From contig JAGUZU010000081.1 in the NCBI GenBank assembly GCA_020060625.1, forward strand, positions 1 to 64,000: a stretch of DNA of 64,000 bases, read 5' to 3'. The DNA is from Anaerolineales bacterium. GTDB lineage: Bacteria > Chloroflexota > Anaerolineae > Anaerolineales > Villigracilaceae. Under the pieces are notes generated by a model. That model was given only the letters and a program-made list of their open reading frames with translations. It ran no database searches and was not told where the DNA came from. Shown in pieces: positions 46,406 through 50,003 of this stretch (positions are counted from its first letter, which is position 1; the number at the start of each line of letters is the position of its first letter). The position numbers and the translations under genes are program-made.

Positions 46406-47371
46406 TTGAGCGCGGTAACTTTTTTTTCACCAGTAACAGAACAAATTAAACTCGTCGAGGATTTGATGCGGGCGCAGTCGGATGAATCCCACCCCGACCT
46501 GCGCGCCGCCCTCGAACATTTGCTTGCGGCAGGGGGCAAGCGCATCCGACCCACCCTCGGCTTGCTCGTTGGAACCATATTTGGCGCGCCGTTGGAAAAA
46601 CTCATCACCCTCGGCGCGGCTGTCGAACTGCTTCACACTGCCACCCTTGTCCACGATGATTTGATCGACGGCGCATTGCTCCGGCGCGGTATGCCCACGC
46701 TGAATGCGCGCTGGTCGCCGCCCGCCACCGTCCTCACCGGCGACTTCCTCTTTGCGCGCGCCGCCAAACTCGCCGCCGAAACCGACCACCTGCCTTTGAT
46801 GAAACTGTTCTCCGAAACGCTGGCGGTCATCGTCAACGGCGAACTGACGCAGATGTTCACCTCGCGCGGACTCATCAGCCGCGACAACTACATCAACCGC
46901 ATCTACGCCAAAACCGCCTCCCTCTTCGAGATGACCTCCCGCGCGGCGACCATGGTCAGCCCGGCGAATGAGGCGACGGTTGAATCCATGCGCAATTTCG
47001 GATACCAGATCGGCATGGCATTCCAAATCGTGGACGACATCCTCGACTTCACCGGCAACCAGGCTTCCGTTGGCAAACCGCTCGGCTCAGACTTACTGAA
47101 CGGGCTGGTCACCCTCCCAGCCATTTACTACGCCGAAGCCAATCCCGACGATCCCGACATCCTCTCCCTGCCAACCGGCGGCTGGACCAATCAGGAACAC
47201 ATGGCGCGCCTCGTGGAAAAGATCCGCGAGAGCAGCTGCACCCACAAGGCAATGCTCGAAGCCGAACGCCATGTGGACGAGGCGCTTGCCTGTCTTGAAT
47301 CCATCGATACGTGCGTCGAGCGCGACGCGCTGGAAAATCTGGCGAGATATATTGTAGATAGAAAAGTGTAA
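46406..47371 (+). CDS. Polyprenyl diphosphate synthase
   Basis: The 321-residue enzyme has both aspartate-rich motifs: LVHDDLIDGALLRRGMPT (first, about 82-90) and FQIVDDILDFTGNQ (second, about 211). LAAGGKRIRPTLGLLVG is the family's N-terminal Lys-Arg site. It extends allylic diphosphates with isopentenyl diphosphate to make a long chain, probably for menaquinone or wall carrier lipid. Chain length is not decided. The start is TTG 46406, chosen because GGGGAG lies six bases before it and because the frame upstream overlaps tatD. Confidence 0.9.
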   Translation: MSAVTFFSPVTEQIKLVEDLMRAQSDESHPDLRAALEHLLAAGGKRIRPTLGLLVGTIFGAPLEKLITLGAAVELLHTATLVHDDLIDGALLRRGMPTLNARWSPPATVLTGDFLFARAAKLAAETDHLPLMKLFSETLAVIVNGELTQMFTSRGLISRDNYINRIYAKTASLFEMTSRAATMVSPANEATVESMRNFGYQIGMAFQIVDDILDFTGNQASVGKPLGSDLLNGLVTLPAIYYAEANPDDPDILSLPTGGWTNQEHMARLVEKIRESSCTHKAMLEAERHVDEALACLESIDTCVERDALENLARYIVDRKV

Positions 47372-47444
47372 TAGCTGGATAGTTTTGGTAGTTTGGTAGT
47401 TTCACTTCAGTCTTCCATTCTTCATAATTCACCCTTGCAACCCC
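47372..47444. other. Short gap before the DUF177 gene
   Basis: An AT-rich stretch with short TAGTTT repeats (TAGTTTTGGTAGTTTGGTAG). Nothing else recognised. Confidence 0.4.
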
Positions 47445-47951
47445 ATGCCAAGCCCTAAAAAACCCTTTCGTTTCAACGTCGGATTCATCATCCACGAGGA
47501 AGTCGGCTATCATCACGACTTTCCCTTCGCCTTCGACCAGATCTCCCTCGGCGACGGCCTTGAACTTCGCAACTTTGAGGGTGTCATCAACGTCGGCAAG
47601 ACGCCGCAGGGACTGATCGTTCAGGCGGATTTCTCTGCCGAAACCACGCTTGAATGCGTCCGTTGTCTGACCGAATTCGAGCATGAATTGACATGGTCGT
47701 TCACCGAGCTGTACGCCTTCGACAAACGCTCCATCACCGAATCGGGACTCCTCCTCCCCGACGATGCCCACCTCGACATGGCTCTTCTTCTGCGCGAATA
47801 TGCCCTGCTCGAAATCCCCATCAGCCCGCTCTGCAAGCCCGATTGCAAGGGACTTTGCGCCGAGTGCGGCGAGAACCTGAACGAAAAAGATTGTGGTCAC
47901 AGACCTGCCGAGCCGGATTCTCCTTTCGCAAAACTCAAGGATTTGTTGTAA
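47445..47951 (+). CDS. DUF177 (YceD) family protein
   Basis: The 168-residue protein has the DUF177 pattern: TTLECVRCLTEFEHEL (about 66-80) and a C-terminal CKPDCKGLCAECGENLNEKDCGH with the conserved cysteines. YceD proteins are linked to 23S rRNA and are usually followed directly by rpmF (ribosomal protein L32). Here rpmF is missing and a short leader frame and terminator come next. The TAA stop at 47949-47951 forms part of a possible -10 box. Confidence 0.86.
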   Translation: MPSPKKPFRFNVGFIIHEEVGYHHDFPFAFDQISLGDGLELRNFEGVINVGKTPQGLIVQADFSAETTLECVRCLTEFEHELTWSFTELYAFDKRSITESGLLLPDDAHLDMALLLREYALLEIPISPLCKPDCKGLCAECGENLNEKDCGHRPAEPDSPFAKLKDLL

Positions 47952-47954
47952 AAT
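47949..47954 (+). promoter_or_regulatory. Possible -10 box of the metG leader
   Basis: TAAAAT with 7 bases to the ATG of the 27-codon frame. No convincing -35; the transcript may instead come by read-through from the DUF177 gene. Confidence 0.45.
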
Positions 47955-47961
47955 AACGCCC

Positions 47962-48045
47962 ATGAACTTCAATTCCGTTCTCCAAATGGTGACAATGCCC
48001 ATGCGAATGTGGATGCCTTCCTGCGCCGACTGGAAAGCACGTTAG
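47962..48045 (+). CDS. Met-rich leader peptide of metG (putative)
   Basis: A 27-codon frame starting 7 bases after a -10-like box and ending in TAG at 48043. Six codons are ATG: the start and codons 9, 12, 14, 16 and 18, so five Met codons fall within ten positions. After the last Met, codons 19-27 cover the segment 48024-48040 that can pair with the left arm and loop of the terminator at 48067. The stop is 20 bases before that arm. This matches the plan of amino-acid biosynthetic and pheST-type leader peptides. No family match is expected for such a peptide. It is supported by arrangement only, not by known homology. Confidence 0.55.
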   Translation: MNFNSVLQMVTMPMRMWMPSCADWKAR

Positions 48046-48082
48046 TTCATCCTATTGGAATCAACGGGCTGTCCATTCTGCG
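48024..48082 (+). promoter_or_regulatory. Candidate antiterminator pairing upstream of metG
   Basis: CGCCGACTGGAAAGCAC (48024-48040) can pair with GGGCTGTCCATTCTGCG (48066-48082) at 13 of 17 positions. This pairing uses the left arm of the terminator at 48067-48094 and so excludes it. The first element lies within the last codons of the leader peptide and would be covered by a ribosome at its stop codon. Confidence 0.5.
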
Positions 48083-48094
48083 GACAGCCTTTTT
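48067..48094 (+). terminator. Intrinsic terminator between the leader frame and metG
   Basis: An 8-bp stem (GGCTGTCC with GGACAGCC), a 7-base loop and a T5 tail. It ends 103 bases before the metG ATG. Confidence 0.88.
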
Positions 48095-48110
48095 GTTTAG
48101 AATTTACGAT

Positions 48111-48181
48111 GTCATTGCGAGGCGGCGATCTTCCGCCGAAGCAATCTCCACTTAGCAGGAGATTGCTTCGCTCGCCATGAC
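48111..48181. repeat. TCATTGCGAG palindromic repeat upstream of metG
   Basis: GTCATTGCGAG and CTCGCCATGAC form the outer arms (one mismatch); GAAGCAATCTCC and GGAGATTGCTTC the inner arms. Same family as 30857-30931. Confidence 0.88.
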
Positions 48182-48197
48182 ATACTGGAGCAATCTC

Positions 48198-50003
48198 ATG
48201 ACCGAAACCATTTTAGTAGCAGTCGCCTGGCCCTACGCCAATGCAGAAATCCACGTGGGCAATATCACGGGTTCGCATTTACCTGGGGATATTTTCGCGC
48301 GGTATAACCGCCTGAAAGGCAACAAGGTGTTGATGATCACCGGCACCGACTCGCACGGCACGCCCGTGATGATGAGCGCGGACAAACTCGGCAAGCCTGT
48401 CGAAGAAGTATACAAGTCCTATCATGAAGGTTTTATCGAGTTGTTCCAAAAACTCGGCATCACCTATGACCTGTACACCACCACCCACAGCGACAACCAT
48501 TTCAAGGTCTCACAGGCGATGTTCCTCGCCTTGCAAAAGAACGGCTATCTCTTCCGTCAGTTCAGCAAACAGTGGTACTCTCCCAGCGCGGGCAGGTTCC
48601 TGCCCGACCGCTACGTCGAAGGGACTTGTTACATCTGCGGCTTCGAAGGCGCGCGCTCGGATCAATGCGATAACTGCGGCAATGTGCTTGAGCCTGAGAA
48701 ATTGAAAAATCCGCGCGCAAAGACCGGCGACGGCGCGCTTGAATTGCGCGACACCGAGCATTTCTATCTTGACCTCTCCAAGCTAGAGCCTGAGGTCAAG
48801 AAGTTTTTGCAGTCTCGTTCCGATCACATGCGCGATACGGTCTTGGGCGAGTCCCTGCGCAAGATCGAAAGCGAAGGACTCAAGCCGCGTTCCATCACGC
48901 GCGACCTTGAATGGGGCATCCCTGTTCCCATCAATGAACCGGGTTGGGAAACCAAAAAACTCTACGTGTGGTTTGAAGCAGTCATCGGCTATCTCTCCGC
49001 TCCGATTGAGTGGGCGCAACTCGAAGGTCAGAAAGAGGCGTGGCGCGATTGGTGGATCAACCCCGCCGCCAAGCAATTCCACTTCCTCGGCAAGGACAAC
49101 ATCTTCTTCCACGCCTCGCAGTGGCCCGCCGAGTTGATGGGCGCGGGCAGCGCGTTCATGGAATTCTTCGCGGGCGAGCGGAACGCGCCACTCATCCTGC
49201 CGTATGACGTGCCAGCCAATCAATTCATGAATCTCGAATCGCAAAAGATCAGCGGTTCGCGCAACTGGGCGGTTTGGGGACGCGACGTCCTGACCCGCTT
49301 CGACCCCGACGCCGTCCGCTATTACCTGACGGTCAACATGCCCGAAGCGAAGGACAGCGATTGGGACTGGGCGGATTTCGTGGCGCGCAATAACAACGAG
49401 CTCGTGGCGACGTGGGGCAACCTCGCGAACCGCGTGCTGTCGTTCTGTTATAAGCATTGGGAAGGTCATGTGCCAGATGTGGACACGACCACGCTTCGCC
49501 CCGCAGACCTCGAACTGCTCGCCACCATCGAGGCTGGATTCAACACCGTAGGCGCCGAACTCGACGCCGTGCGCCTGCGCTCCGCCCTCGGCGAGACGAT
49601 GAAACTCGCCACGGCTGTCAATCAATACCTCGATGTCAACGCGCCGTGGAGCGCCGTGAAGACCGATAAAGATGGAGCCGCCAAGACCATCTACACCGCG
49701 TTGAAGGCGATTGATTCATTGAAGGTCATGTTCGCGCCGTTCCTCCCCTTCACCTCCGAACGCCTGCACAGCTTCTTTGGCTGCGAGACCCACCTCTTCG
49801 GCGAGCAATACACCGAAGAGGTGACCGACGCCATCGGCACGCACAAGGTTCTGCGCTACCGCGAAGTAAGTCGGACTGGCAGTCCGACCTACTGGAAACC
49901 CAGCGACTTGAAGCCGGGACAGAAGTTGAATCAGCCTGCTCCGCTGTTCAAGAAGTTGGAACTGGCTGTTATTGAAGAAGAACGAGGACGATTGGGTAAA
50001 TGA
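48198..50003 (+). CDS. metG: Methionyl-tRNA synthetase
   Basis: A 601-residue class I synthetase. The HIGH-type motif is HVGNI (about 16-20). A zinc-knuckle insertion has CYICGFEGARSDQCDNCGN (about 138-156). The KMSKS-type loop reads QKISGSRN (about 350), a known variant. The anticodon-binding helical domain makes up the rest. It charges tRNA-Met. Start ATG 48198 follows GGAG; the frame upstream falls within a repeat. A palindrome at 49866-49892 is translated in frame near the C terminus (EVSRTGSPTYW). The leader at 47949-48094 may regulate it by attenuation. Confidence 0.95.
   Translation: MTETILVAVAWPYANAEIHVGNITGSHLPGDIFARYNRLKGNKVLMITGTDSHGTPVMMSADKLGKPVEEVYKSYHEGFIELFQKLGITYDLYTTTHSDNHFKVSQAMFLALQKNGYLFRQFSKQWYSPSAGRFLPDRYVEGTCYICGFEGARSDQCDNCGNVLEPEKLKNPRAKTGDGALELRDTEHFYLDLSKLEPEVKKFLQSRSDHMRDTVLGESLRKIESEGLKPRSITRDLEWGIPVPINEPGWETKKLYVWFEAVIGYLSAPIEWAQLEGQKEAWRDWWINPAAKQFHFLGKDNIFFHASQWPAELMGAGSAFMEFFAGERNAPLILPYDVPANQFMNLESQKISGSRNWAVWGRDVLTRFDPDAVRYYLTVNMPEAKDSDWDWADFVARNNNELVATWGNLANRVLSFCYKHWEGHVPDVDTTTLRPADLELLATIEAGFNTVGAELDAVRLRSALGETMKLATAVNQYLDVNAPWSAVKTDKDGAAKTIYTALKAIDSLKVMFAPFLPFTSERLHSFFGCETHLFGEQYTEEVTDAIGTHKVLRYREVSRTGSPTYWKPSDLKPGQKLNQPAPLFKKLELAVIEEERGRLGK
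49866..49892. repeat. Palindromic repeat (GTAGGTC type) in frame inside metG
   Basis: GTCGGACT and AGTCCGAC flank a 3-base loop, within GTAA...CTAC. It encodes VSRTGSPTY near the MetG C terminus. Confidence 0.75.

Follow-up and report, generated by a model that had tools for sequence, protein, structure and literature searches.

The window analysed here, a stretch of 64,000 nucleotides of DNA, carries metG, the gene for methionyl-tRNA synthetase, behind a YceD/DUF177 gene at 47445–47951. Between the two lies a short, methionine-rich frame that is preceded by a -10-like box and followed by an intrinsic terminator (Table 1). The frame reads directly as MNFNSVLQMVTMPMRMWMPSCADWKAR and has five internal Met codons among its 26 internal codons. 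Its stop codon stands 20 nt before the stem–loop (48066–48090), in which a run of five T (48090–48094) is followed by GTTT. An earlier note on this DNA had listed TAAAAT, a 7-nt gap, the ATG of a 27-codon frame, its TAG, a terminator and metG as the next gene, and each of these elements is present in the sequence. The description of the promoter needs amending, as the -10 box shares positions 47949–47951 with the TAA that ends DUF177, and the -35 region is poor. In a consensus scan of positions 47000–48600, the interval from the terminator to metG contained nothing resembling a promoter. By one fixed rule, which asks for a short frame 6–8 nt behind a TAnnnT box and then a terminator, this is the sole such place on both strands of the 64 kb. 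A high-copy, palindrome-like repeat occupies approximately 48109–48170, between the terminator and metG, and accounts for 49 of the 50 matches of 47945–48200 within the same genome.

Table 1. Features at the metG locus of the window, with the basis for each assignment.
Feature	Position	Strand	Basis
Candidate promoter: weak -35-like TTCGCA (47925–47930), 18-nt spacer, -10 TAAAAT (47949–47954)	47925–47954	+	Sequence scan
Predicted Met-rich leader frame, 27 codons; Met at codons 1, 9, 12, 14, 16 and 18; TAG at 48043–48045	47962–48045	+	Sequence, relatives
Segment 1 (codons 6–10), containing the first internal Met codon; predicted partner of segment 2	47977–47991	+	RNAalifold helix, minimum-energy fold of the window
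Segment 2 (codons 21–27); CGCC for the predicted 1:2 helix, TGGAAAGCACG (48031–48041) for the predicted antiterminator	48024–48041	+	Folds, RNAalifold
Segment 3, CGGGCTGTCCA; terminator 5′ arm and predicted antiterminator partner of segment 2	48065–48075	+	Folds, alignment of 37 leaders
Intrinsic terminator, 9-bp stem (48066–48074 with 48082–48090) and T-rich tail	48066–48098	+	Scan, alignment of 37 leaders
GGAG ribosome-binding site of metG	48187–48190	+	Sequence
metG, methionyl-tRNA synthetase, the putatively regulated gene; ATG at 48198	48198–50003	+	Pfam PF09334, E 8.5e-133

The element is widely conserved in the genus. Of 57 genus genomes, 54 matched a DNA query of positions 47940–48110, and the same 54 were recovered with a covariance model derived from an alignment of 37 leaders. 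Of the three remaining genomes, G031 has metG truncated at a contig edge, with just its 3′ portion present; G033 and G084 yielded no metG and gave only weak matches of a different sort. The gene downstream of the element is metG in 53 of the 54 genomes (52 by BLASTP, plus G034); in the remaining one, G036, the contig ends inside the terminator. The DUF177 gene, searched for in up to 900 nt of upstream DNA, precedes the element in only 14 of the 54. Given that the downstream gene is so constant and the upstream gene varies, the element belongs to metG and not to DUF177.

Several irregular copies were observed. In G042, metG is split over two frames, perhaps through a sequence error. Within the window's own genome, the DNA search returned just one further match, on contig C51; it was rejected because it consists of the terminator alone, with no Met-rich frame before it. 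Among the covariance-model matches listed, 41 are weaker than E 1e-4; of the 14 that were looked at, 13 were set aside as plain terminators and one, in G023, is a decayed copy of the leader. A second, decayed leader lies approximately 1 kb upstream of the metG leader both in G047 (L096, positions 1002–2130) and in G023 (L288). The two copies enclose a gene of approximately 270 amino acids, which looks alike by eye in the two genomes and has no Pfam match in G047. In G029 (L089), the order from position 1066 is the 5′ half of a leader, a 333-residue gene without a Pfam match, a complete leader and metG.

The leader frame itself was compared in a near group of 59 distinct leaders, drawn from the genus genomes and from loci L109–L123 and L166, some of which may belong to other genera. 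The frame is intact in these near relatives and its C-terminal tail, W(K/R)AR, is highly conserved; the comparison was anchored on the Trp residue and omitted L081, L195 and L197, which have no such anchor. Peptides of the Met-rich relatives take MKFTSAFPMVPMTMAMRMEMFYCAKWKAR-like forms, for example MKFKSAFSMVPMTMAMRMEMFCRAEWKAR in G039. The 59 leaders contain two to eight internal Met codons, with a mean of 5.8 per 29.5 internal codons, or 19.7%, versus 2.0% Met in the metG protein, and 58 of the 59 contain MM or MxM. The terminator stem begins 17–24 nt past the leader stop in all 59. Ribosome-mediated attenuators require enrichment in cognate codons, and the predicted leader has it, as it has an intrinsic terminator between frame and gene. 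In three genomes (G028, G083 and G001) the frame contains an in-frame insertion. At loci L085, L094, L189 and L193, an in-frame insertion encoding approximately LAP(G/R)ASAG, with palindrome-like DNA, lies in the Met region of the leader.

The distance between the -10 box and the ATG is 7 nt in 55 of the 59 near leaders and 6 nt in the other four, in a scan that itself required 5–9 nt. By the same scan, 53 of the 54 genus genomes show the 5–9-nt spacing, the exception being a contig that ends in the terminator. Many relatives have, by eye, TTGACA...TAAAAT or CTTGCA...TAGTAAACT at the same place. With a spacing of 6–7 nt the transcript would begin at about the ATG, which leaves no room for a Shine–Dalgarno site. 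The leader message is therefore probably leaderless, the start being placed by the distance from -10 box to ATG; this feature had been missed in the earlier note. Leaderlessness is not universal, given that L131 and L132, from another family, have by eye a longer stretch with an AAGG-like site ahead of the start.

The arrangement extends beyond the genus. Two collections of loci were examined: a first set of 80 metG upstream loci, and a second set of 80 taken blind across the class, with one or a few per family. A locus was counted as positive with at least three internal Met codons, or with at least two and leaderless spacing. In the blind set, metG is preceded by a Met-rich frame and then a terminator in all nine genomes that represent other genera of the family, and in 27 of 71 from other families; the three-Met rule sets no promoter condition and had no separate null control. 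The remaining 44 of the 71 loci outside the family were negative for this combination; one of the 71, L244, comprises only 209 nt. The earlier note had suggested looking for a Met-rich frame with a terminator upstream of metG in other Anaerolineae, and these loci provide it.

A single fixed rule, comprising a leaderless frame with at least two internal Met codons and a terminator, was applied to 135 regions upstream of metG from beyond the genus and family, a sample that was not dereplicated between the two collections and that includes L127, which is probably of the same family; 39 of the 135 satisfied it. (L127 was likewise counted as outside in the shuffle tests described below, and not in the swap test.) The same rule was satisfied by 0 of 135 reverse complements and 0 of 675 dinucleotide shuffles. 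Nor was it satisfied by any of 240 blocks from far upstream or 232 from downstream, drawn equally from the two strands (120 and 116 per strand, respectively). As these blocks are largely coding and rarely contain any frame with a terminator, they control for the whole arrangement and not for Met content alone. Such a frame with a terminator, whatever its Met content, was present in 42 regions, and 39 of these contain two or more internal Met codons. Elsewhere in the phylum, 36 regions upstream of metG from other classes yielded one Met-rich frame with a terminator and none with leaderless spacing. On the loci compared, the candidate device is thus patchy and largely a feature of this class. 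The single case from another class (L308 in G544) has a Met-rich frame ending in MMHMTDPAWRAT and a terminator 5′ of metG. Two further loci from other classes, L307 and L319, have a different short frame with LTAxGFMAG near a hairpin before metG, perhaps another kind of metG leader.

Both the peptides and the terminators change across these groups. Some leader peptides resemble each other within groups, and those of distant groups share little but the Met cluster (MNTFSRDMMTMRMPLPQRDRRQ, MNTLKFAIKLMPMVMPCRTTAV, MKTNCATTFSMMMVMRNPRRDRRRALAPA and MFTFITMPLMPMEMPAPPQAATRRG). Terminator arms outside the family likewise differ (GGCTGTCC, CCGTCTGTC, CCGCCTGCC, GCTGGC and GCTGCCCGG), and many frame ends complement the terminator arm of their own locus. 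Examples are GACAGACGG with CCGTCTGTC in L178, GCAGGCGG with CCGCCTGC in L176, CCGGGCAGC with GCTGCCCGG in L130 and GGGCAGCCC with GGGCTGTCC in L255. Outside the family, the mean energy of the predicted antiterminator is -14.3 kcal/mol, versus -10.8 kcal/mol for shuffled sequences, with p ≤ 0.05 in 19 of 38 leaders. Similarly, frame ends paired with their own arms average -14.4, versus -11.2 with arms swapped between loci (n = 37; 29 better than the mean swap; Wilcoxon p 1.9e-5). The own arm falls within the best 5% of swaps in only six of 37, and the leaders are partly related to each other. Both tests omitted L204, L245, L168 and L182, for which no Met frame or the wrong hairpin had been picked, as well as leaders with fewer than two internal Met codons and repeated peptides. 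These comparisons with shuffled sequences and swapped arms are the main evidence that the antiterminator is selected.

In the near group, helices and covariation were assessed on an alignment that took in 37 of 66 leaders, the same alignment from which the covariance model was built. RNAalifold predicts two helices, 1:2 and the terminator 3:4. The 1:2 protector helix (47977–47991 with 48024–48039), which was absent from the earlier note, pairs CCA..GGTG with CGCC..TGG through seven pairs, each found in 33–36 of the 37 sequences, a count made without a shuffled-alignment comparison. In the terminator, 100% of cells are paired across the 37 sequences and two pairs have changed on both sides. For the antiterminator 2:3, 87.8% of cells are paired, versus 17–50% when the segments are slid against each other, and one position is mismatched in 35 of the 37. 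It occurs in the minimum-energy fold of all 66 leaders over that span, a count without a shuffled control. The earlier note had reported that 48024–48040 can pair with 48066–48082 at 13 of 17 positions. That count is correct, and the core that relatives retain is narrower, comprising 48031–48041 with 48065–48075.

The same note had suggested testing whether the Met codons and this pairing covary, and the pairing itself shows no covariation near home. Among the 37 near sequences, 2:3 is nearly invariant, with no pairs changed on both sides, and shuffles attain the observed score. Its duplex energy is better than that of shuffles (p ≤ 0.05) in only six of 59 near leaders, and in one of nine leaders from other genera of the family. 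As so few near leaders are distinguishable from shuffles, the case for the antiterminator near home rests on conservation and position. The Met codons and the alternative pairing, whose loss in close relatives the earlier note would have taken as evidence against its reading, are both kept.

Folding of the window leader indicates how the segments might exchange partners. In silico and without a ribosome, it folds as 1:2 plus 3:4. Covering everything up to 48025, at a stage before segment 4 has been transcribed, yields 2:3 (-15.0 kcal/mol for 48026–48078). When only the sequence up to 48007 is covered, as in a stall at Met12, segment 3 is predicted to pair with 48009–48018 and not with segment 2. 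This alternative would likewise block the terminator, although it is not the named pairing. A ribosome placed on the stop codon allows 3:4 to form. In the complete window RNA the terminator wins (-16.5 for 3:4 versus -14.5 to -15.0 for 2:3), such that a switch would need co-transcriptional timing. The modelled pairings 1:2, 2:3 and 3:4 are of the trp/his type and, on paper, mutually exclusive. An antiterminator that excludes the terminator and is exposed by stalling is therefore found in silico, with the stall at Met12 giving segment 3 its other partner.

Other explanations for the locus can be weighed against these data. The terminator could be that of the upstream gene, with metG having its own promoter and the Met codons arising by chance. 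The -10 box of the window does overlap the DUF177 stop codon, and the GGGCTGTCC/GGACAGCC type of stem also follows other sequences in the genus. However, it is metG and not the upstream gene that accompanies the element, no candidate promoter was seen past the terminator in the consensus scan, and a Met-rich leaderless frame with a terminator is absent from all control sets. This explanation was rejected on synteny and has next to no probability; the earlier note had named a terminator that simply ends the DUF177 transcript as the outcome that would speak against attenuation, and the gene order contradicts it. The intact frame and highly conserved W(K/R)AR tail would instead suit a functional, Met-rich small protein that is co-transcribed with metG by chance, the terminator only lowering metG expression. 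Against this, peptides of distant groups have little in common beyond clustered Met residues, on which ground the small protein was rejected, and the tail is conserved at the RNA level, where it supplies the partner for both segment 1 and segment 3. A small protein is accordingly very improbable.

T-boxes respond to tRNA charging and are common at tRNA synthetase genes. A T-box, a riboswitch or a protein-controlled leader, with the Met codons secondary, must therefore be considered, the more so as T-box matches exceed the cut-off in all 31 genus genomes searched, with seven at E ≤ 0.001 in that of the window (G000). None of these matches lies at the window's metG: the region has no Rfam match even at E 1, and the window has none at the gathering score. 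In relatives outside the genus, 40 metG loci were compared with Rfam: none had a T-box, and the only hits were a cobalamin riboswitch on the complementary strand and two at chance level. Furthermore, dense Met codons and a stop codon 17–24 nt before the stem are unnecessary for such mechanisms. A T-box or other known RNA was rejected on the searches of the window's metG and the 40 loci of relatives, and control of this kind is extremely unlikely.

The element is very probably a ribosome-mediated transcription attenuator of metG, a reading that the earlier note had put forward and that conservation, linkage to metG and the predicted pairings support. The recurrence of the same arrangement before metG in many related bacteria suggests that it most likely turns metG on when charged tRNA-Met is short. 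It is proposed that transcription initiates at the ATG of the leader frame or immediately beside it, as the spacing suggests, and that a ribosome begins on the leaderless message. When charged elongator tRNA-Met is scarce, this ribosome would stall at the Met codons between positions 9 and 18 of the frame, where it would cover or already have opened segment 1, and segment 2 would be free. By the time segment 4 emerged, segment 3 would already be paired upstream, and the polymerase would read through into metG. With ample charging, the ribosome would reach the TAG and hide segment 2, 3:4 would form and transcription would end. A leader that is not translated would form 1:2 and then 3:4, and transcription would end here too. 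The extent over part of the class with dissimilar sequences and this three-way switch go beyond what the earlier note had described.

Initiator and elongator tRNA-Met are both charged by MetG, which opens a more speculative extension of the attenuator: a leaderless Met leader could respond to two methionine pools with opposite sign. Too little charged elongator tRNA would cause stalling and turn metG on, and too little charged initiator tRNA would leave the leader untranslated, such that 1:2 forms and metG is off. The output of metG would then resemble a band-pass, up in moderate shortage and off in severe shortage or in arrested cells. Such a response is conceivable but rather doubtful.

Among known systems, T-boxes occur in this genus, but with no match at the window's metG, where sensing would be by the translating ribosome; a lineage with T-boxes elsewhere thus appears to control metG in this other way. 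The proposed mechanism is that of the classical ribosome-mediated attenuators of amino-acid operons such as trp and his, as outlined in PMC1183508. Like these, the metG leader has a frame rich in cognate codons, the 1:2, 2:3 and 3:4 pairings, and a stop codon positioned to let the ribosome hide segment 2. Unlike these, it would control a tRNA synthetase and not biosynthesis, its codon is AUG and it is apparently leaderless.

Classical leader-peptide attenuators before tRNA synthetase genes are described in the literature, and are of the same type with amino acids other than Met. For methionine operons of Actinobacteria, a paper on leader-peptide attenuators of synthetase genes reported no conserved upstream RNA structure. 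In Streptomyces lividans TK24, leader peptides precede leuS, trpS, alaS and thrS, and metL precedes metNIQ; the leuS, trpS, thrS and metNIQ leaders are reported as leaderless (PMC8079986, in the sections available). The likeness lies in leader peptides at synthetase genes, several of them leaderless, and in a Met-containing leader before a methionine importer. As given in those sections, metL differs in having two internal Met codons and no typical terminator, and a metG leader does not appear among the S. lividans leaders there. No methionine-codon attenuator of metG was found in open-access full-text literature, in agreement with the earlier note, which knew of no described Met leader for metG; Lopatovskaya et al. 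(2010), on attenuation of amino-acid and aminoacyl-tRNA operons, could hold one (cited in PMC4833913).

The candidate metG attenuator spans part of a bacterial class in which gene regulation is little studied. As quite different leader peptides carry the same layout, it offers a good natural series for what an attenuator needs. Unlike the S. lividans set, the layout here is compared over many genomes and comes with a terminator and a predicted antiterminator. Cognate-codon attenuation of tRNA synthetase genes is known; new, to our knowledge, are the pairing of this amino acid with this gene, and the lineage in which it occurs.
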